31,445 bases of DNA from a virus. Every line of letters starts with the position of its first letter. Within the stretch, counting starts at the first letter, position 1. The stretch is taken from the IMG/VR virus record IMGVR_UViG_3300035034_000409, positions 1 through 31,445 of that record. The stretch is one strand, 5' to 3'. Made by a program: the position numbers and the translations under genes. The notes under the pieces were generated by a model. It had not been told where the DNA came from. It saw only the letters and a program-made list of their open reading frames with translations, and did not search any database. Positions 2,724 through 31,445 of the stretch are shown here, piece by piece.

Positions 2724-4148
2724 ATGACTGGTGACAAAAATAAAGAAATTTTGTCCGAAGATGTTCAAAAGGCAGAAACCATTAAAGCAAAATGGAAGCC
2801 GCTTATTGAGTCTAAAGATGATACAGGCGAAGACTTAGGTTTTCAAGAAATTAAATCCTATGATCGTAAAAGAATCACAGCGATTCTTTTGGAGAATACT
2901 GAAAAGGATTATCTTAAAGAGAATACCACAACTGGTGTAGACAATGTCGATCCCGTTTTGATTAATCTCGTAAGACGTACTGCTCCTAATCTGATGGCAT
3001 TTGATATTGTTGGCGTACAGCCAATGACTATGCCAACTGGTTTGATCTTTGCAATGCGGGCCCATAAAGGTGCGCAACCACAAGGACCATTCGGCAAGCC
3101 GGGCGATGCACGTAACGGATTTCAATCTGGTGCGGCTGAAGACTCACAAGGCGATACACCAGCCGAGCAGTGGGGAATTGACGGAGTAGCAACAAACGAA
3201 ATTTTGTTCAACGAAGCCGATACTAAACTGACTGGTAAAGGTACACAAACTTCAAACGCAACTGCGCCTGATTATAATGCGTATAGTGTTGGTAGAGGTA
3301 TGTCTACAAGTGAAGGCGAAACGCTTGGTGGTTCAGGCGGCGGCGATCTTGCATGGTCTGAAGCGTCTATGACGATTGAAAAATCTTCTGTAGAAGCTAA
3401 GACACGCGGCATGAAAGCTGACTACACCACAGAATTAGCCCAAGACTTGAAGTCTGTTCATGGTTTGGATGCTGAAGCTGAGTTGTCTAACATTCTTTCT
3501 ACAGAAATGATTGCTGAAGAGAATCGTGAAATGATTAACACTGTTCGTCAAATTGCAGTAATTGCCCCAGCCGAAGCGACATACCTTAACGGTAGTGTTG
3601 TACTCGACTCCGCTGGTGCGCCTGTACTCGGTACGGCTGGTTTGTTTGATCTTGACGCTAACTCAGACGGTAGATGGCAAGCAGAGAAATTCAAAGCTTT
3701 GTTGATGAAAATCAATAAAGAAGCAAATGCCATTGCTAAAGCTACAAGACGTGGTCGCGGTAACTTCTTGATCGTTTCAAGTGATGTTGCTTCTGCACTT
3801 GACCTTGCTGGTAAACTTGATTATGCCCCAGCTTTGGACAATAACTTGAATGTTGATGACACTGGTAATACCTTTGTCGGCACACTTCAAGGACGCTTTA
3901 AAGTGTATGTTGATCCTTACTTGGGCTACGATGAAGTTATTGTAGGCTATAAAGGCGCAAATCAAATGGACGCTGGTGTTTTCTACTGCCCGTACGTTCC
4001 TTTGCAAATGCACAAAACAGTTGACCCGAACACTTTCCAACCGAAAATTGCCTTTAAGAAAAGATATGGTATCGTTGCCAATCCTTTCACTACTTTGCAA
4101 GCTAACAAGAATTTGTACTACCGCAAATTTAAAGTTGGCAATCTCTAA
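2724..4148 (+). CDS. 23: Major capsid protein gp23
   Basis: 474 residues (T4 gp23 is 521), the HK97-fold major head protein of T4-like phages. Recognisable segments are LVRRTAPNLMAFDIVGVQPM (about residues 83-102) and PTGLIFAMRAHKG just after it. Others are VEAKTRGMKADYTTELAQDL, RGRGNFLIVSSDVASAL and the C-terminal KKRYGIVANPF. The N-terminal 60 or so residues are charged and contain L-x-E sites for gp21 (for example near ITAILLE), consistent with a cleaved delta domain; the exact site is not assigned. It has its own late promoter and AAAGGAG site. A strong terminator follows at once, and no gp24 vertex gene follows. Confidence 0.96.
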   Translation: MTGDKNKEILSEDVQKAETIKAKWKPLIESKDDTGEDLGFQEIKSYDRKRITAILLENTEKDYLKENTTTGVDNVDPVLINLVRRTAPNLMAFDIVGVQPMTMPTGLIFAMRAHKGAQPQGPFGKPGDARNGFQSGAAEDSQGDTPAEQWGIDGVATNEILFNEADTKLTGKGTQTSNATAPDYNAYSVGRGMSTSEGETLGGSGGGDLAWSEASMTIEKSSVEAKTRGMKADYTTELAQDLKSVHGLDAEAELSNILSTEMIAEENREMINTVRQIAVIAPAEATYLNGSVVLDSAGAPVLGTAGLFDLDANSDGRWQAEKFKALLMKINKEANAIAKATRRGRGNFLIVSSDVASALDLAGKLDYAPALDNNLNVDDTGNTFVGTLQGRFKVYVDPYLGYDEVIVGYKGANQMDAGVFYCPYVPLQMHKTVDPNTFQPKIAFKKRYGIVANPFTTLQANKNLYYRKFKVGNL

Positions 4149-4202: not shown

Positions 4203-4389
4203 ATTCAGTCTCCACAATATTATCAAATTCTTCGTGCGTAATCTGCATAGTCCCACAGGCTTTAAGATCATCTAAAAGAATCGTAGGCACTGGCATATCA
4301 CAATCTTCAAACTTTATGTAAACGTCTACAACCAGTGTTCTATCATAGAAAGACTCTTTATCATAATTTCTTAATACTTTAATTTCCAT
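4201..4389 (-). CDS. Small acidic protein of unknown function
   Basis: 62 residues (MEIKVLRNYDKESF...). No known domain is recognised. It starts inside the 3' end of the homing endonuclease gene (11-base overlap) and ends in the shared terminator. It is therefore the last gene of that leftward transcript, probably translated by coupling. Confidence 0.5.
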   Translation of the reverse strand: MEIKVLRNYDKESFYDRTLVVDVYIKFEDCDMPVPTILLDDLKACGTMQITHEEFDNIVETE

Positions 4390-5914
4390 CTAACACCCAT
4401 ACATCATTACCACAATCGTATATTCTGTAATAACCATTATTACACATATTCTCATACTCTGTCAAGGCTCTGTCATATGTATCTAATATAGACTCTAGTT
4501 TATGTTTTTGAAAGCCTACGCGATTATATAATACAGTCTCCGATCCTTTGCGAAAATACCAATAACTAGGATTACTTGTATGAGAATATTTAAACCCTAT
4601 CTTTTCATACACGTTACCTACGCTATGTCTTCTATCACTATACGATATAAGACTCGGATTGTCAAACACTCTTTGAAAGGCTTTTAAGAGTCTGGATGCA
4701 GAGCCTATTACAGAATACTCCACTCTATTTGCATATCGAAGTAATTCATATTCATATTTCTTATTATATCTACTTTTACCAAAAGACATACATGATACCA
4801 ATACGCCTTCGCAATAGAGTCCAAAGGCTATCTTCGACCTTACCTTACCCTGCAAATGATTCTCATTGAAGAATGCTTCAGAGTCTTTAGCTGAGACTTC
4901 AGATACGGTACATTTACGCGCGTATATTCTTTTCTCTTTATCAATCAAGCCTAGCTTATTCTTTATCATACTCTTACAGATATCTTGCTTTGTAAGCCAC
5001 GAATCTTCAAATATATGTAATAATTTTATACCATTTTTTAAGCATGTATCAGTCTTCATTAAATGGTAATTACTATCTTTAAATTTGCTACTATGCCAGT
5101 ACACACCATTATACTCAATGGCAATCATATGTTTAGGTATTAATATATCAAGCTCAATGCCTAGTGTACGATCATTTGTAATAATTTCAAGCTCTGAGTC
5201 TAAAGACTGTATATAGTCTCTTATAGATAGTTCGCCACTCGAAACAATATGACTACATGATGGACAACCATTCCCTAATGATGTATGGTGTTGTGGTCTA
5301 ACAAAAAATGAACCATGAGTGCGACATATGACTTCAATCTTATCTGAACACCCCGCGCGAGTGTATCTAACATTTGAATAATCGTACAAGTCTCCGTGTA
5401 CTGCCACGCATAATAAAAGAAAGTCTTCTTTAGACATAGGATTATTATTATGAATGAGATGATTCTCAGAGTGAGTCCGTTTCTTAATATCATAAGTCTT
5501 TAACCACTTACTTACGGTAGGCACGCTTACGCCATACTTTTCTGCAATCTGAGTTTGACTATTAAGCGAGTCTTGATACAGTGTCTCTAACTCTTCCTTC
5601 ATAGGAACGGGGTGTTTATTAGGTACTCTCTTATATTCTATACCATAGTCATTCAGAGTCTTAGACACTTGAATTTGCGGAGCATTGATAATCTCGGATA
5701 TATCTTTAATAGTCTTACCAGAGTCTATATAGGCTTGGGCATCGTCTCTCGATAAGGTGAAATTCTTTTTTTGTGGTTTAGACTCAATTACAATATTATT
5801 TTTATTAAGAATATTTCTTATTGTTTGGCGACTAAGCATAAAGAATCTTGAACACTTTGATATGGTCCAAGACTCTTTTACGTATTTGTCTATGATATTC
5901 TGTTCGTTATTCAT
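4379..5914 (-). CDS. Free-standing homing-type endonuclease with HTH and Vsr-like nuclease regions
   Basis: 511 residues from the ATG that has AAGG seven bases upstream; an upstream in-frame ATG lacks such a site. The first 150 residues hold several helix-turn-helix-like units (SRQTIRNILNKNNI, SVPTVSKWLKTYDI). A Cys/His segment follows (ICRTHGSFF...GCPSCS). Next comes a region like Vsr/EDxHD-type nucleases (GIELDILIPKHMIAIEYNG, then VYWHS) with candidate Glu and Asp metal ligands and a WH motif. The C-terminal third (SYSDRRHSVGNVYEKIGF) is a module common in phage homing endonucleases. It sits between gp23 and unrelated small genes, a usual place for a mobile nuclease. The target site is unknown. 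Confidence 0.75.
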   Translation of the reverse strand: MNNEQNIIDKYVKESWTISKCSRFFMLSRQTIRNILNKNNIVIESKPQKKNFTLSRDDAQAYIDSGKTIKDISEIINAPQIQVSKTLNDYGIEYKRVPNKHPVPMKEELETLYQDSLNSQTQIAEKYGVSVPTVSKWLKTYDIKKRTHSENHLIHNNNPMSKEDFLLLCVAVHGDLYDYSNVRYTRAGCSDKIEVICRTHGSFFVRPQHHTSLGNGCPSCSHIVSSGELSIRDYIQSLDSELEIITNDRTLGIELDILIPKHMIAIEYNGVYWHSSKFKDSNYHLMKTDTCLKNGIKLLHIFEDSWLTKQDICKSMIKNKLGLIDKEKRIYARKCTVSEVSAKDSEAFFNENHLQGKVRSKIAFGLYCEGVLVSCMSFGKSRYNKKYEYELLRYANRVEYSVIGSASRLLKAFQRVFDNPSLISYSDRRHSVGNVYEKIGFKYSHTSNPSYWYFRKGSETVLYNRVGFQKHKLESILDTYDRALTEYENMCNNGYYRIYDCGNDVWVLDGN

Positions 5915-5922
5915 CAATCGCC

Positions 5923-5994
5923 TTAGAAATACCCCCAAGCATAACCATACACAATAACTAATAGCGTAATCAATAATAATGTAAGTCTAATCAT
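5923..5994 (-). CDS. Putative 23-residue single-span membrane microprotein
   Basis: An ATG frame of 23 codons reads MIRLTLLLITLLVIVYGYAW and three more residues, one hydrophobic helix with a positive first turn. It ends eight bases before the homing endonuclease ATG, so the two could be translationally linked. The ribosome site is weak (GAAAGA). It could be a chance AT-rich frame; hydrophobicity plus tight spacing are the only support. Confidence 0.35.
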   Translation of the reverse strand: MIRLTLLLITLLVIVYGYAWGYF

Positions 5995-6051: not shown

Positions 6052-6127
6052 ATAAAATTCGTGTTTTTTTATCGTTTAATATCAGATAGTTACAGAGACA
6101 AAAAGCGTTTAAATTTCACTTATGGTA
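6052..6127 (-). repeat. 76-base repeat, copy 1 (terminator tail plus upstream promoter region)
   Basis: Matches 30177-30252 with only two differing bases by my alignment. In the direction of transcription it begins in the 3' arm of a terminator-like hairpin, continues through CGCTTTTTGTCTCTGTAACT and an AT-rich stretch, and ends just upstream of the next leftward gene. The core GCTTTTTGTCTCTGTAACTA recurs a third time at about 11879-11898 on the + strand. Confidence 0.85.
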
Positions 6128-6156
6128 TCTACCTACCTAAGACACGTTTTTAAACG
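6100..6156 (-). terminator. Terminator after the KTSC-domain gene
   Basis: On the minus strand CGTTTAAA (inside the last codons of the KTSC gene) can pair with TTTAAACG about 35 bases later, followed by CTTTTTG. The long loop makes it weaker than the gp23 terminator. The same 3' arm and T-run occur at the third copy of the shared core, where a better hairpin forms. Confidence 0.5.
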
Positions 6157-6364
6157 TATATTTGCCTAAAATCTCTGCTCTAAAATACTTACCCTTTGAC
6201 TCAGACTCTTTAAAGGCTTTCCAAGTCTCAGATGAAACGTCTGAATATTTGTAGACTGCCTCAGACTGAAATTCTACATACAATACACACTCCAGCTTAT
6301 CATATGCCATGCGCTTAATGTTTGTGGAGTCTTTTACATCAAATTCTTCATTGGTATTATTCAT
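6137..6364 (-). CDS. KTSC-domain protein
   Basis: 75 residues from the ATG that has AAAGGA at the right distance (six bases); two in-frame ATGs further upstream are less likely. STNIKRMAYDKLECVLYVEF followed by YKYSDVSSETWKAF and GKYFRAEILGKY is the pattern of the KTSC domain (Lys-Thr-Ser-Cys named family). These are small proteins common in phages and plasmids, also found fused to Lys-tRNA synthetase; the biochemical role is not established. A host-type promoter lies just upstream. Confidence 0.8.
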   Translation of the reverse strand: MNNTNEEFDVKDSTNIKRMAYDKLECVLYVEFQSEAVYKYSDVSSETWKAFKESESKGKYFRAEILGKYTFKNVS

Positions 6365-7317: not shown

Positions 7318-9480
7318 TTATTCCTTATTTGTTTTAATTGATGAAAAGTTGCCGATTTTCTCAAACTCTATATGTGAGCGGAGCTTGTCTGTCAAATCTG
7401 ATTTATGTGATATGATAAAGATATTAGTCTTTTTATCCATTTCCAAAATCAAATTCAGTAATTCTTCGGTAGCATCGGAGTCTAACGAAGAATCCATAGT
7501 TTCGTCAAGAATTAATAAGTTTGTGTTTGTGGTATTTTTACTACGCGCAAGTTGTCGCCATGCAAGTAAGACTGAGATATCCACACGAGACTTTTCACCC
7601 TCTGAGAAACTATTATACTGAAACGTATCTCTATAACGACTCTTAATAACTTCATTGAAAGACTCATCAAGTGTAAATTCAATAGGTAGTCCGAAGCGTA
7701 CAAGATAATCATTAATAAACTTATTCATAACGGGAATATATTGTCTAATAATTTTAGTCTTTATTCCACCGTCTTTAAGCATATCTACAGTGGCAAAGTA
7801 ATAATCTTGCTCGTGCAGAAGTTTTTTTCTATCCTCTACCAGACTCTTTAAAGTCTCTCTAAGAGTACGCAACTCTTTTGAGTCTACGCCTGATTTTGAA
7901 TCATTTTTGAGATTGAGTATATCCTGATTAAGACTTTTAATAAAGCGAATAATACCATTCTTATCGGTTGTAAGCTTATAGATATCATTTGACAGATTAT
8001 TTATAGTCTCTGATACGGTATCATAGTCTTTCAAGACTCGACTCTTTTTCTCTAAGTCTAGCTTAACTCTTTGAAGCCCTTTGCTAACTTCGGCTATTTT
8101 ATGCGTACATTCACTGACAAGCTTTTGCTTATGCTCTTCCTGAATATCCTGCCTACAAGTGGGGCAACGGTCATTATTATGAAAAAAGGATTGTTGCTTA
8201 TTATTACTATTCATAACACCGTTTAAGTCTGTGTGAAGCTTTTCAAGACTCTTAACACTATTTTGAACCAGTTCTTTACCAATTAATTTCTTTTTAATTG
8301 AGGCGCACTCATACTCTTTAAGTGTGATTTCACCCTTCAGGGCTTCGGCATTGGCAATCTCTTCGACAAGCTTTGCTTTCAATTCTGCAATTTTCTCAGT
8401 ATTCTTCTGAAGACTGGCTTCCTGATTCTGTTCGTAGAGTTTAATTTTCTCTTCAGTTAGCGTTACACTATAGTCAAAATCTTTAAGCTTATCTCGAATA
8501 ATTACAAGCTTCTCTTTTGCAAGCGCGAGCATGTATGAGAATATCTTAATATCTAACAACTCTTCAATAACCTCACGGCGATCTGAAGTCTTCAATGCCA
8601 TGAACGGTGTATAATCGGCACTACCAATAACCACAACCTGTTTAAAGACTTTTTCATTTAGACCACTAAGAATACTTTCTTCAAGGTATTTCTGATAATC
8701 TTTAACGGCTGAAGTCTGGTCAATTAACTTGCCATTCTCGTAGACTTCGAAAACATTAGGTTTAATGCCGCGTACAATCTTATACTTATTTTTACCTACA
8801 GACAAATACAATTCGACTAAAAGATTACTGTTATTAATGCTATTGACTAACAAAGGCTTATTGACATTACGAAAAGGCTTGCCAAACAATCCAAATGTTA
8901 TAACGTCCAAGAGGGTTGAATTATGCGAAACTATATCATTTGCAAAAAACTCTTTGACTTCTTCTACTTGCAGGTCGTACAAGTCTTCTGTATAGTCTTC
9001 TTTTATAACAGTAGCAATTCTATCCATACCGTTTTTGGTTAAGATGTTAGAATTTTTTAAAAATTTATAAGCTTTCTGCCACTTTTCACCAGTATGAAAT
9101 AAATGTTCAGGTGACGATTTTATAGATAAACCGCCATGCGTAGTTACGGTTACAACCTCTGAGTCGCGAGCTGTAACGTCTGCATATTCGATTTTACGAT
9201 AACCGAAACGAGTATTGACACTTATATTCCCTATCTCTTCTGGGTAATTGTCATAAAAGTCTACAATATCTTTAATCGTTGTTTTCGCACTTTGACCGAA
9301 TTTCTGAAGAGTGTCCTCGTCTGAAATATCAATGTCTATAACGGTACTACCATCCAGACATTTTCCACACCCATTTTTTCCAGTAATGCACGTTGTCGGA
9401 GACTTGTTCAAGTGTATTTCAATAGGTGTATTGCCAGTTGAAAGGAAATTCTTATATATTACCCGTTCAAATATAATCAA
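7318..9480 (-). CDS. 46: Recombination endonuclease subunit gp46 (SbcC/Rad50-like), intein-containing
   Basis: 720 residues as encoded; removing the 147-residue intein leaves 573, close to T4 gp46 (560). With gp47 it forms the Mre11-Rad50-type nuclease used in T4 recombination-dependent replication and host DNA breakdown. Visible parts are Walker A GKNGCGK / STLLDVITFGLFGKPFR, split by the intein at residue 41; central coiled coil; zinc hook CPTC at residues 439-442; ABC signature SEGEKSRVDISVLLAWR; and Walker B LLILDETMDSSLD near the C terminus. The first codon is TTG, directly after the gp47 stop, with GGAG nine bases upstream; the family start (short strand, then YKNFLSTG) supports it. Splicing must occur for the ATPase site to form. 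Confidence 0.95.
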   Translation of the reverse strand: MIIFERVIYKNFLSTGNTPIEIHLNKSPTTCITGKNGCGKCLDGSTVIDIDISDEDTLQKFGQSAKTTIKDIVDFYDNYPEEIGNISVNTRFGYRKIEYADVTARDSEVVTVTTHGGLSIKSSPEHLFHTGEKWQKAYKFLKNSNILTKNGMDRIATVIKEDYTEDLYDLQVEEVKEFFANDIVSHNSTLLDVITFGLFGKPFRNVNKPLLVNSINNSNLLVELYLSVGKNKYKIVRGIKPNVFEVYENGKLIDQTSAVKDYQKYLEESILSGLNEKVFKQVVVIGSADYTPFMALKTSDRREVIEELLDIKIFSYMLALAKEKLVIIRDKLKDFDYSVTLTEEKIKLYEQNQEASLQKNTEKIAELKAKLVEEIANAEALKGEITLKEYECASIKKKLIGKELVQNSVKSLEKLHTDLNGVMNSNNKQQSFFHNNDRCPTCRQDIQEEHKQKLVSECTHKIAEVSKGLQRVKLDLEKKSRVLKDYDTVSETINNLSNDIYKLTTDKNGIIRFIKSLNQDILNLKNDSKSGVDSKELRTLRETLKSLVEDRKKLLHEQDYYFATVDMLKDGGIKTKIIRQYIPVMNKFINDYLVRFGLPIEFTLDESFNEVIKSRYRDTFQYNSFSEGEKSRVDISVLLAWRQLARSKNTTNTNLLILDETMDSSLDSDATEELLNLILEMDKKTNIFIISHKSDLTDKLRSHIEFEKIGNFSSIKTNKE
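8920..9360 (-). other. Mini-intein in the gp46 Walker A motif
   Basis: 147 residues, from Cys41 to Asn187 of the precursor, with Ser188 as the +1 residue. Block A is CLDGSTVIDI. Block B-like is THGGLSIKSSPEHLF, with Thr and His in the expected places. Block F/G is YDLQVEEVKEFFANDIVSHN with the penultimate His and terminal Asn. No LAGLIDADG or HNH endonuclease fits in the remaining space, so it is a splicing-only intein. Excision rejoins GKNGCGK to STLLDV, the exact sequence expected from T4 gp46 (GRNGGGKSTMLEA). Confidence 0.93.
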
Positions 9481-11278: not shown

Positions 11279-11347
11279 GGTTTTCCTGACTGTGTTGCAT
11301 ATATATCACACATAATAAAAATAATTTGATAAAAGTGCATTTTTTAC

Positions 11348-11376
11348 TTGACAAGGTTTTGAAAAATGTGTATAAT
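11348..11376 (+). promoter_or_regulatory. Consensus sigma70 promoter pointing into a gene-free region
   Basis: TTGACA, 17 bases, TATAAT with TGTG before the -10: a perfect consensus hexamer pair and spacing on the + strand. All protein genes nearby run the other way. The next 500 bases downstream have no convincing reading frame and end in a terminator, so the product is most likely an RNA. Confidence 0.75.
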
Positions 11377-11430
11377 AGAATTATATGTTATTCTTAATCC
11401 AATAAGACTTTAACCCTTTATATAACAAGA

Positions 11431-11459
11431 AGACTAACACAATATTTACAGTCTGTCAA
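11431..11459 (-). promoter_or_regulatory. Candidate promoter for gene 55
   Basis: Minus strand TTGACA, 17 bases, TAGTCT, with ATTGTGT before the -10, much like the promoter at 6391-6419. It would give a leader of about 150 bases before gp55 and an antisense overlap with the rightward transcript. Confidence 0.45.
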
Positions 11460-11500
11460 GAACTTTTCATAATACTGTAACTTATTAAAAAATAACTTAT

Positions 11501-11737
11501 ACAACAAATGATACTACGTAGATATTGCGAAGCAATTAGAGTCTCAAAGATTCTTAATATGTTTAGTCTTTACAATATTACACAAATTAAGTTTCTGAAC
11601 ATTGAATTTGTTCTATTCTCTACAGACTTACAATAATGAATACCTATGTCTATTTCATAGACCAATATATCGAGACTGTATTTCTTATTGAGAAGACTCT
11701 ACTCGCTTCGCAAGACCTACGGAACACCATTTGTTAT
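11501..11737. repeat. Diverged 45-base inverted repeat in the gene-free region
   Basis: Arms 11501-11545 and 11693-11737 are about three-quarters identical as inverted copies. The blocks AACAAATG, CGTAG, TTGCGAAGC and TAGAGTCT are conserved and run in the same order. Each arm also holds a small hairpin around the GAA loop. It may be a long-range stem or two copies of one element inserted in opposite directions. Confidence 0.7.
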
Positions 11738-11789
11738 ATAACTATTTTATAAAGATAAGATTTGATATTTAAGAGACTTCTTATACTAC

Positions 11790-11797
11790 TATTTATA
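11790..11797 (-). promoter_or_regulatory. Possible late promoter in the gene-free region
   Basis: Minus strand TATAAATA. No gene follows for 500 bases, so it would drive an RNA or a long gp55 leader. Chance occurrence is possible in such AT-rich DNA. Confidence 0.3.
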
Positions 11798-11828
11798 TAT
11801 GTAATTTGTGCCGTAAAATACGAAAAAA

Positions 11829-11885
11829 GCATTTAAAATCCATTTTGTGTGTCATAGTACACAAGTTAGATTTTAAATGCTTTTT
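11829..11885. terminator. Strong bidirectional terminator carrying the shared GTCTCTGTAACTA tail
   Basis: GCATTTAAAATC pairs with GATTTTAAATGC (12 bp), with an inner TTGTGT/ACACAA stem. T5 follows on the + strand and T6 on the minus strand. It ends the uvsW-side leftward genes and could end the rightward RNA. The + strand tail TTTTTGTCTCTGTAACTA is the same as in the two 76-base repeats, where it faces left. Confidence 0.85.
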
Positions 11886-11918
11886 GTCTCTGTAACTACT
11901 TGATATAGTTATATATTT

Positions 11919-17491: not shown

Positions 17492-17561
17492 TGGTGGAAT
17501 GGGGGGGATTTGCACCCCCGTCCTGTTCAGCAATGCTGACAGTCGATCCTGAATCCATCCC
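17492..17561 (-). ncRNA. Minimal tmRNA tRNA-like domain without messenger part
   Basis: 70 nt with an encoded CCA end. Acceptor stem GGGATGG/CCATTCC with G3-U70, the alanine identity pair, and discriminator A. Then ATTCAGGATCGAC, nearly identical to the stemless D region of tmRNA (E. coli ATTCTGGATTCGAC). Then an 8-bp hairpin (CTGTCAGC / GCTGAACAG, one bulged A, loop ATT) in place of helix P2 and everything beyond it. Then GGAC, as in E. coli tmRNA, and a T arm GGGGG-TGCAAAT-CCCCC. There is no anticodon loop, tag frame or room for pseudoknots. It begins three bases after the stop of the methyltransferase gene. Known biology: AlaRS charges tmRNA using G3-U70, and SmpB binds its D region. That this RNA is charged and used is inference. 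Confidence 0.82.
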
Positions 17562-27725: not shown

Positions 27726-27791
27726 TGGAGCGTCATAAGAGATTCGAACTCTTACTTATTGAGTGGAAGTCAAACAAAACACTTATAACGC
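27726..27791 (-). tRNA. tRNA-Gly(UCC)-like RNA lacking a D arm
   Basis: 66 nt with encoded CCA. Acceptor GCGTTAT/ATGACGC (one T-G wobble), discriminator T as usual for tRNA-Gly, anticodon loop CTTCCAC (anticodon TCC, T33 and A37 present) on a 4-bp stem, 5-base variable region, T arm AAGAG-TTCGAAT-CTCTT. Between acceptor and anticodon stem there are only 11 bases (AAGTGTTTTGT), with no D stem and no GG. It is either a decaying tRNA or a deliberately D-armless one. It starts six bases after the stop at 27798. Confidence 0.75.
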
Positions 27792-28808: not shown

Positions 28809-28836
28809 ATAATAGCACATCTACAGACTCTGTCAA
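28809..28836 (-). promoter_or_regulatory. Host-type promoter for the 28775-to-25027 gene set
   Basis: Minus strand TTGACA, 16 bases, TATTAT with GTGC before the -10. It lies at the stop of the methyltransferase gene. Likely drives the Pyr_excise-like protein, tRNA, GroES, Pth2-like and CCA genes. Confidence 0.7.
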
Positions 28837-30110
28837 TGACTTTTTTTATAGGTAAAGACACTAATTGCAATATTTGTACCAGACTCACGAAAACTTCCAC
28901 ACGGTAAGTCTGTCCAAGTATTATAGCCTTTGTCTAAGTCTGATAATAGATTATGATCGTATCGCGCGGTACTCGGTAAGACCGCCACGAGTGTTCCCTC
29001 ATCTTTAAGAAACTTCAAAGCATGGCGAATATGTTTTTCATAGTGTTTACCATAAAAAGGAGGGTTCATAATAATTTTATCGTATGCTTCTTTAGGCGGG
29101 ATATCAAGAAAGTTGTCTATAATGACTGTATGCCCCTTTGCGCGAGCCTCAGACACACGCCCTGCGTCATACTCAATTCCCAAAACATTAAGAGACTTAT
29201 TAAGTCTTTTCATACCATCAAGAAATCTACCACACCCACACGAAGGTTCTAATACATGATCGCCATCCTGAAAATATACATTCTCTAAAATCTTATCAAC
29301 AATCTTTACAGGTGTTGCATAATACTGCAAGTCTTTAGCCACCGCTGAGCTTGTTTGCTTATGTTCAGTCTCTGTGTGACAATCTGCCAAAACATCGCCG
29401 TAATATTGGTGTAAGGCTTTATTAATATCCCTCAGCGTTTCGGTATCAAAATACATATGCGCATTGCCATTCTTATATCTCTTTAGCCAAATGCCACGCG
29501 AGTCTTTGAGATATTCACTATCCTTCAGTAATTCTGATACATCCTGATATGAAGCCATAGGCTTCCCTTGATAGGCAGCAAGAGCATTCAAAATATCCAT
29601 AACAGACTCTCTACCCCAGCCATAACTATTGACACTAGATAGAATAACTCTTTTTGGTAGTCCTTTTACGCCAATCTTAACCTTTTCATGAGACTTATAC
29701 GCTGGGTCAAGTTTTGTAAAGACTTCAGCCAAGCCACGAAGAATATTTTCAAATGGATTCTGCCAATAGTCTTCAAAGGTTGCTGTAATATTCTCATATG
29801 TAAACTCTGGCGGGTTTTCCAATGCGCGGCGAAACATTGCTTTGTCTGTAGCGGGAGCAATAGTCTCAATATTTAATTTCTGATACATATATTGCCACGA
29901 AGACTTTAGCAAAGAGTCTTTCAAGTCTTTGATATAGACTCTACCGAAGTCTAAGTGTGTATTACCAAACGTGCCGTATAATGTAGCCTTGCTTTGTAAA
30001 TTGGTGCAATGGTTTTCAAATTCCTGTAAAGACTTTTCAAGACTATTATACTGTGTTGTGTAGTCTTCAAGAATTTTGTCAATTTTTACTGATATTGTAA
30101 GTTCGTTCAT
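28833..30110 (-). CDS. DUF4942-type DNA methyltransferase
   Basis: 425 residues. The N-terminal 240 residues match the DUF4942 pattern (KGLPKRVILSSVNSYGWGRE, GIWLKRYKNGNAHMYF). The C-terminal methyltransferase has VLEPSCGCGRFLDGM (SAM binding) and IIMNPPFYGKHYEKHI (N/D-PP-F catalytic motif), typical of adenine N6-methyltransferases. The fusion is common in phages and mobile elements. Own promoter at 30145-30175, just after the second copy of the 76-base repeat. Confidence 0.85.
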   Translation of the reverse strand: MNELTISVKIDKILEDYTTQYNSLEKSLQEFENHCTNLQSKATLYGTFGNTHLDFGRVYIKDLKDSLLKSSWQYMYQKLNIETIAPATDKAMFRRALENPPEFTYENITATFEDYWQNPFENILRGLAEVFTKLDPAYKSHEKVKIGVKGLPKRVILSSVNSYGWGRESVMDILNALAAYQGKPMASYQDVSELLKDSEYLKDSRGIWLKRYKNGNAHMYFDTETLRDINKALHQYYGDVLADCHTETEHKQTSSAVAKDLQYYATPVKIVDKILENVYFQDGDHVLEPSCGCGRFLDGMKRLNKSLNVLGIEYDAGRVSEARAKGHTVIIDNFLDIPPKEAYDKIIMNPPFYGKHYEKHIRHALKFLKDEGTLVAVLPSTARYDHNLLSDLDKGYNTWTDLPCGSFRESGTNIAISVFTYKKSH

Positions 30111-30144: not shown

Positions 30145-30175
30145 ATTATACTATCATATTATATAAGTTTGTCAA
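30145..30175 (-). promoter_or_regulatory. Promoter for the DUF4942 methyltransferase
   Basis: Minus strand TTGACA and TATAAT, both perfect, but 19 bases apart, which would need help or a shifted -10. The 76-base repeat ends just before the -35, so it may supply an upstream element. Confidence 0.55.
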
Positions 30176-30176
30176 G

Positions 30177-30252
30177 ATAAAATTCGTCTTTTTTTATCGT
30201 TTAATATCAGATAGTTACAGAGACAAAAAGCGTTTAAAATTCACTTATGGTA
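30177..30252 (-). repeat. 76-base repeat, copy 2
   Basis: Same orientation as copy 1 at 6052-6127, two differences. A TATGGTA/TACCATA hairpin precedes it in the direction of transcription. It lies between the terminator of the 30342 gene and the promoter of the methyltransferase. Confidence 0.85.
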
Positions 30253-30270: not shown

Positions 30271-30297
30271 AAAAAAAAGAAGCTTTAAAGCTTCTTT
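30271..30297 (-). terminator. Intrinsic terminator after the 81-residue gene
   Basis: A perfect 22-base palindrome (AAAGAAGCTTT and its mirror) followed by T8 on the minus strand. It ends transcription from the 30587 gene. Confidence 0.88.
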
Positions 30298-30341: not shown

Positions 30342-30587
30342 TTATTTATCCGCATTTGAGTAAATAGTGTCGATCTCTTCTTTAGTGAAAATAAAGTCAC
30401 GCGCTCTTTCACAATCTAGTGAGTCTCCAACAAACTCTCCATGAGTCTCGAAAATGTGACATACAGCATTGATAGTCTCTGTATATGTAATCTCTCTACC
30501 TGAAGGGTATAAAGCATCGGGCACACAACCGTAAAAGTCGTTCAAATATTCTTTAAAGTCAATCAGTGTTTTCATATGTTCTTTCAT
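30342..30587 (-). CDS. Hypothetical acidic protein, 81 residues
   Basis: MKEHMKTLIDFKEYLNDFYG, then an acidic mixed region. Promoter 30630-30657, AAGAGAGAATATC leader and a strong terminator make it a single-gene unit. No family recognised. M5 is a possible alternative start. Confidence 0.65.
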   Translation of the reverse strand: MKEHMKTLIDFKEYLNDFYGCVPDALYPSGREITYTETINAVCHIFETHGEFVGDSLDCERARDFIFTKEEIDTIYSNADK

Positions 30588-30629
30588 GATATTCTCTCTT
30601 TCTTTTGGTTAAATCTCAGTTACAAGACT

Positions 30630-30657
30630 ATAATAACACTTTGGACCAACATGTCAA
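30630..30657 (-). promoter_or_regulatory. Host-type promoter for the 81-residue gene
   Basis: Minus strand TTGACA, 16 bases, TATTAT with AGTGT before the -10, followed by ATAGTCTTGTAA as at the 6518-6545 promoter. Confidence 0.75.
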
Positions 30658-30658
30658 G

Positions 30659-31445
30659 TTAAACTGGATACTTTTCTGAAGAATAATCATCAATAAGGAC
30701 CATATTGGCATATTTTTTATCTTCATCTTTAAAGTCTTTGGCAGATTTACCATCTTTGTATATAAGCTTATTCACTTTAAATGAACTGAAGTTACATAGG
30801 TGATGCCATCTGTCATACTTCCATACAAGTTCACATACGTCTGGGTGCATATCCACAAGCATTTGAGACTTGTTAAGAGTGCCTAACTCATGATACTTTT
30901 TACTTTTAAGCAAGGCTTTTTCATCTTCTGTGATATTCTCCGAATGATAAAACTCTTCGGTGTTGCCGCCCTTGACAGTCTGTGTCGCACACTTCCCTTG
31001 AAGATAGAAATTGAACTCTATGGTACAGTCTCCATCTTTAAGAACTCTCAATGATAAGTCTGTATCTTCATTATATCGCCCGCGCCATCTATGCTTACAG
31101 TCGTTTCTAATCAAAAGAGTAGAATAGACTCTGGTGTTAAGGATAATTGGTGGTTTAACAACTCTACCTGTCAAAAAGAATCTGTACTGTAATCCAGAAA
31201 CGGGAACATTCTCAAATCTGTCTACAAACTCTTCACAGGCTTTGAATAATATACCAGACTCGACTCGCACTCTTTGATTATTATGCATTCTATAGAAGTC
31301 TTGAATATTATCGTCAAGAATCCAATGACTGCCTGTATCCTTATTGGCAAGACACCAATCCCAAAAATAGTTTCTTGCCCTTCCGGGCCCATCACCGTGA
31401 TTAGAGAATGGCGCAATGATAAGTGTCGCGTAGTCTTTAAGATCA
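30659..31445 (-). CDS. TET-associated glycosyltransferase-like protein, 5' end outside window
   Basis: Partial: about 261 codons are visible from the right edge of the window (frame GAT CTT AAA GAC). Motifs are APFSNHGDGPGRARNYFWDW, then HWILDDNIQDFYRM (DD nucleotide-sugar site) and RWRGRYNEDTDLSLRVLKDG (about 100 residues on), then ATQTVKGGNTEEFY. This is the pattern I associate with TAGT proteins, phage enzymes proposed to glycosylate oxidised or hydroxymethylated cytosine in DNA. It suggests that this phage carries modified bases and that a TET or hydroxymethylase gene lies outside the window. The start codon is not visible; an internal ATG at 31288 is not the true start. Confidence 0.8.
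   Translation of the reverse strand, partial: DLKDYATLIIAPFSNHGDGPGRARNYFWDWCLANKDTGSHWILDDNIQDFYRMHNNQRVRVESGILFKACEEFVDRFENVPVSGLQYRFFLTGRVVKPPIILNTRVYSTLLIRNDCKHRWRGRYNEDTDLSLRVLKDGDCTIEFNFYLQGKCATQTVKGGNTEEFYHSENITEDEKALLKSKKYHELGTLNKSQMLVDMHPDVCELVWKYDRWHHLCNFSSFKVNKLIYKDGKSAKDFKDEDKKYANMVLIDDYSSEKYPV

Follow-up and report, generated by a model that had tools for sequence, protein, structure and literature searches.

A repeated intergenic element resembling terminator/promoter cassettes in the genome of an uncultured T4-like phage

Gene content of the contig

The window analysed here is a metagenomic contig of 31.4 kb, the IMG/VR virus record IMGVR_UViG_3300035034_000409 (positions 1-31,445). 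It is part of the genome of an uncultured T4-like myovirus and carries T4-type genes for a prohead protease, a protein of the T4 scaffold family, Gp23, UvsY, a UvsW-like helicase, gp46/gp47-like proteins and a late sigma factor, with T4-type recombination functions encoded by UvsY, the helicase and the gp46/gp47-like proteins. Consensus T4 late promoters (TATAAATA) stand upstream of the scaffold and Gp23 genes. The coordinates of the features discussed below are summarised in Table 1.

We found no DNA relative of the first 24 kb of the window in the phage collection, and Gp23 was at most 49 % identical to anything found. The Gp23 searches did not recover any close relative of the phage: the query with the single protein gave no relatives, and the query with the alignment gave 80 loci of 43-49 % identity, all of which lack the element described here.

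Several other features of the contig were recorded. The region 30659-31288 (minus strand) matches the TET-associated glycosyltransferase family (E 5e-19), which suggests that the phage DNA may contain modified bases. The gp46/SbcC-like gene (7318-9480, minus strand) appears to carry an intein, as an intein-like insertion was seen by inspection at the Walker A motif, with putative junctions GKNGCGK then CLDGSTV ... VVSHN-ST-like; similar insertions are found in NrdA, UvsX and gp41 on contig G002 (see below). A stretch of 70 nt (17492-17561, minus strand) matches both ends of the tmRNA model, GGGATGGATTCAGGATCGAC ... GGACGGGGGTGCAAATCCCCCCCATTCCACCA, with the CCA encoded and with 14 bases where the model has 318 (E 3.7e-12; 38 bits, under the Rfam gathering score of 47). 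It looks like the tRNA-like part of a tmRNA without the tag-coding part. A short tRNA-like match with a reduced D-arm at 27729-27791 (minus strand) reached 37.8 bits at a cut-off of 29 and was missed by ARAGORN.

Table 1. Coordinates of the repeat copies and neighbouring features (window positions unless a contig is given)
Feature	Position	Strand	Remarks
Full copy 1 (family 1)	6052..6127	-	Between 75-aa gene upstream and 23-aa frame and homing endonuclease gene downstream
Terminator-like hairpin of copy 1	6106..6156	-	Left arm in end of upstream gene; fold of 6092-6165
75-aa gene, no assigned function	6137..6364	-	Upstream of copy 1
23-aa hydrophobic reading frame	5923..5994	-	Just downstream of copy 1; read from sequence
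Homing endonuclease gene	4379..5914	-	Downstream of copy 1; phrog_3339, E 9.6e-113
Full copy 2 (family 1)	30177..30252	-	
Separate intrinsic terminator	30276..30297	-	Between upstream gene and copy 2
Early-type promoter TTGACA-16-TAGTAT	30148..30175	-	Starts two bases after copy 2
Gene with DNA methyltransferase-like C-terminal half	28833..30110	-	Downstream of copy 2; PHROG matches
81-aa gene, no assigned function	30342..30587	-	Bracketed by family 2 and family 1
Partial copy 3	11823..11906	+	Homology 11872-11906; own complete strong hairpin; without promoter-side half
Full copy	G002:3797		
Full copy	G002:14370		
Full copy	G002:41066		
Family 2 repeat	30571..30657	-	Early promoter TTGACA-16-TATTAT, conserved leader, ribosome-binding site; before the gene that copy 2 ends
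Noncoding unit (family 3)	11348..11885	+	Ends in copy 3 hairpin; about 400 of its bases also occur at two G002 sites
Family 3 copies	11318-11742; L020:16998-17381; L022:11945-12326		Each with 12/12 sigma-70 promoter

Copies of the repeat

The repeat, hereafter family 1, was noticed in the initial annotation as two copies differing at two bases, with the core recurring near position 11881. Both statements were borne out. The two full copies of the window differ at 2 of 76 positions (97 % identical) and read TACCATAAGTGAAwTTTAAACGCTTTTT-GTCTCTGTAACTATCTGATATTAAACGATAAAAAAAsACGAATTTTAT on the minus strand, which is their sense strand and that of the flanking genes. The partial copy matches 35 bp of the query (bases 28-62, 91 % identity) on the opposite strand and is thus inverted relative to both. 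Only 8-10 % of the sequence is noncoding, yet every full copy of the repeat is intergenic, which speaks for an expression signal at gene joints.

The same annotation proposed a search for more copies and counted a lack of them, together with absence from relatives, against its reading; three further full copies were found, all on contig G002. An exact scan with TTTTTGTCTCTGTAACTA recovered four stretches on three contigs (G001, G002 and G003). G001 stems from the phage seen in the window (99.9 % along 19.9 kb) and extends 2.6 kb further; G002 and G003 overlap each other. Differences among the full copies range from 2 to 12 in 76. Two loci from the motif scans, L026 and L030, were dropped as chance hits, as the short motif alone matches and none of the flanking element is present.

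We infer that G002/G003 and the window very probably belong to one genome, because the contigs share a sample, have complementary and non-overlapping gene sets, and end in repeats. Both G001 and G003 come from sample 3300012147. Proteins of the window and of G002/G003 gave no match to each other (blastp, E 1e-3), and G002 supplies a DNA polymerase, UvsX, gp41, gp32, nrdA/B and baseplate-type proteins, names which were assigned by inspecting translations and checked by a search for the polymerase only. An exact repeat of 87 bp, also present on G002, covers the start of G001, which lies about three bases within it, and the end of G003 falls inside a copy of the element; repeats are where assemblies tend to break.

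As these are metagenome contigs with ends falling in repeats, assembly artefact or chance similarity had to be considered. Chance is excluded: exact direct repeats of the window reach 50 bp, against a maximum of 17 (mean 14.9) in 60 first-order Markov shuffles. An artefact is already refuted for most copies, since copy 2, G002:3797 and G002:14370 recur with the same flanks in separate contigs from other assemblies; copy 1 is known solely from the contig of the window. We regard this explanation as extremely improbable.

The phage collection gave just weak matches of 29-40 bp, Rfam had no match at the repeat, and an origin from the host was rejected because the genome collection contained no exact 20-base match. 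The two strains differ between L020:1-520 and L019:2585-2760, where a stretch of about 340 bases is replaced; the region is coding, has many glycine codons and may belong to a tail gene, and it is away from any repeat copy.

Hairpin and promoter

The five full copies all occupy gaps between co-directed genes and share the strand of those genes, and each has the same order of parts: the right arm of a hairpin with its T-run, an invariant block of 24 bp and an A/T-rich stretch. The edges of the homology are ragged and vary between the copies. The stem-loop has terminator character and is strong in two places, both with a T-run: G002:41066, where a lower stem extends CACTTATGGTA/TACCATAAGTG (-21.8 kcal/mol, z -5.2), and copy 3 (11823-11885; -26.2 kcal/mol, z -8.7). 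Elsewhere it is weaker or degenerate, with -13.9 kcal/mol and z -1.7 at copy 1, z -0.6 at G002:14370 and z near 0 at G002:3797. Copy 2, in which the hairpin loop is inverted, gave z -3.5 when folded together with the neighbouring intrinsic terminator. The left arm contains the upstream stop codon in three copies, namely copy 1 (stop at 6137-6139), G002:3797 (nrdA) and G002:14370.

At copy 2 and G002:3797 the homology runs 35 bp on into a promoter, TTGACA-16-TA(G/C)TAT, located 62-65 bp from the start codon (65 bp from the -35 box in the window, with the same arrangement at G002:3795). These are the two of five full copies directly joined to an early sigma-70-type promoter; copy 1 shows weak matches only, and at G002:41066 and G002:14370 the start codon is too close for a promoter to fit in front of it. 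The initial claim that each copy lies between a terminator and a promoter holds only in part: the right arm and T-run of the terminator are inside the repeat itself, copy 2 alone in the window has a good promoter directly after it, and what comes after copy 3 is a convergent gene and no promoter. By inspection, no convincing -35/-10 pair was seen inside the invariant block, and a late promoter in the repeat was rejected as GATAAAAA is two bases off TATAAATA. A terminator-antiterminator cassette had been suggested as well; the terminator fits the hairpin anatomy, but no antitermination element was found.

Dispersed near-identical copies could also stem from a MITE-like transposable element, small and non-autonomous, or from mobilisation of a site by the neighbouring homing endonuclease, whose gene (first ATG at 5914, longest frame to 5938) lies just downstream of copy 1. 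However, this gene adjoins that copy only, the edges differ among the copies and the alignments show no terminal inverted repeats, which leaves this origin improbable.

The invariant block

The 24-base block TTTTGTCTCTGTAACTATCTGATA is identical in all five full copies (p 0.039 for a run that long), and its part GTCTCTGTAACTA is also found in the partial copy, while the flanking bases vary. Such a pattern could mark a binding site of a phage or host protein (a regulator, an antiterminator or a termination factor), with the copies kept alike by selection. However, the statistical support is weak, and the copies have diverged so recently that their identity may simply go back to a shared origin. 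The block is not covered by a palindrome such as a dimeric regulator would typically bind; the best candidate, TATC-T-GATA, is absent from the partial copy. The motif scans found no isolated sites with the block outside the known copies. We consider a protein-binding site unlikely.

Genes at the joints and partner repeats

The copy at G002:14370 is flanked by a gene whose product has a membrane anchor and by a small lipoprotein gene (MRILIITILFLPFLAGCANTS...), a spanin-like pair, putatively the inner and outer spanin, as read from the layout. Where copy 1 ends in ACACGAATTTTAT, this copy has ATGCGAATTTTAA, and with it the lipoprotein gene opens (start codon and first codons). It offers a tangible example of a joint turned into coding sequence.

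In T4, replication origins pair a promoter with an unwinding element, and an A/T-rich sequence in several copies, partly linked to promoters, might likewise mark replication origins or recombination start sites. The full copies are nevertheless placed precisely between stop and start codons in the direction of the genes and one is now coding, which fits an expression signal better; we find the origin reading very doubtful.

A second repeat, family 2, consists of an early promoter and leader (TTGACA-16-TATTATAGTCTTGTAA ... AAAGAG ... ATG) and occurs at window position 30571, at 7912, 41517 and 48324 of G002, and at 3429 and 11233 of G003. The order family 2 promoter, gene(s), family 1 is seen at three places with unrelated genes (window 30.2-30.6 kb, G002 41.0-41.6 kb and G002 3.8-8.0 kb), and the promoters after the two family 1 copies belong to the same spacing class as those of family 2. 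The block also resembles the family 2 leader (GTCT-TGTAAC; p 0.003-0.14), a suggestive similarity but not a firm one. The family 2 copies of the window and G001 differ at three bases, two of which match paralogous copies; this hints at gene conversion, though so few differences carry no weight.

The third family comprises three copies of about 400 noncoding bases with identical stretches of up to 87 bases. In the window its promoter, TTGACA-17-TATAAT, matches at 12 of 12 positions (11348-11376). No Rfam match was found, and family 3 is possibly a new phage small RNA. Since the unit of the window ends in copy 3, the cassette's terminator half is put to use there as well.

Comparison with known elements

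Promoter-early stem-loops (PeSLs) of T4-like phages are intergenic composites of a stem-loop terminator and an early host-type promoter (Arbiol et al. 2010 and Comeau et al. 2014, as cited in PMC4503421, PMC3950731 and PMC5931544). Family 1 is similar in being a composite intergenic element beside small variable genes, present in several near-identical copies in one T4-like genome, as judged by the T4-type genes and late promoters: two full and one partial in the window, and three more on the contigs assigned to the same genome. It differs in its unrelated sequence, from a deep uncultured lineage, and in having a conserved block of 24 bp plus an A/T-rich spacer that separate the hairpin from the promoter. 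Moreover, some copies have no promoter, one supplies a start codon and the partial one ends a noncoding unit.

In the haloarchaeal myovirus HGTV-1 a conserved promoter/inverted-repeat motif precedes many genes and is compared with PeSLs (PMC3950731). It shares with family 1 the repetition, a promoter-like part and an inverted repeat, but it has an archaeal promoter type and belongs to another virus group, and the likeness noted here is one of description. Start-associated sequences of cluster K mycobacteriophages are repeated intergenic motifs of about 13 bp just upstream of genes, tied to translation starts, whereas family 1 is centred on a terminator.

Proposed role of the element

We think it likely that the repeat represents the conserved half of a terminator/promoter cassette of the PeSL type, and that homologous recombination has spread it. 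As far as can be read from the DNA, the RNA hairpin and T-run would end the upstream transcript in the direction of the genes. The invariant block follows, and then the A/T-rich stretch, which in two copies is placed like an UP element and runs straight into the putative early-type promoter of the next gene. The cassettes would offer the T4-type recombination machinery about 50-110 bp of near-identity between genes, and small early genes could be gained, lost or exchanged at these joints, each keeping its own start and stop signals.

Recombination is favoured over transposition with fixed ends because of the ragged edges, the loop inversion in copy 2 and the way the arrangement of the flanks recurs. 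A recombination substrate that shuffles small early genes was among the initial suggestions, and it agrees with the hairpin, the early promoter in two copies, the stop codons in the hairpin, the ragged edges and the additional copies. As no close relative exists for a comparison of gene order, the shuffling itself we can only infer; among the contigs compared, no exchange between genomes was seen. Against the cassette we count the missing room for a promoter in two full copies, the weak matches at copy 1, the degenerate hairpins, the partial copy, which serves a noncoding unit and not a joint between genes, the failure to see exchange between genomes, and the fact that the contigs are one genome only in all probability.

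What is unusual is the invariance of the block and the fact that one copy has been put to coding use. A more speculative idea, to which we give little weight, is that the block is recognised by a phage factor linking upstream termination to downstream early transcription, and that the cassette also seeds new coding starts, the spanin-like pair being an example. If true, regulatory joints would become coding sequence as genes shuffle.

The repeat is real and looks functional, and it is best understood as one more example, from a new T4-like lineage, of a type of element already described. It would extend portable terminator/promoter joints to a deep uncultured lineage with an unrelated sequence of its own, and suggests that this strategy arises or persists across T4-like phages.
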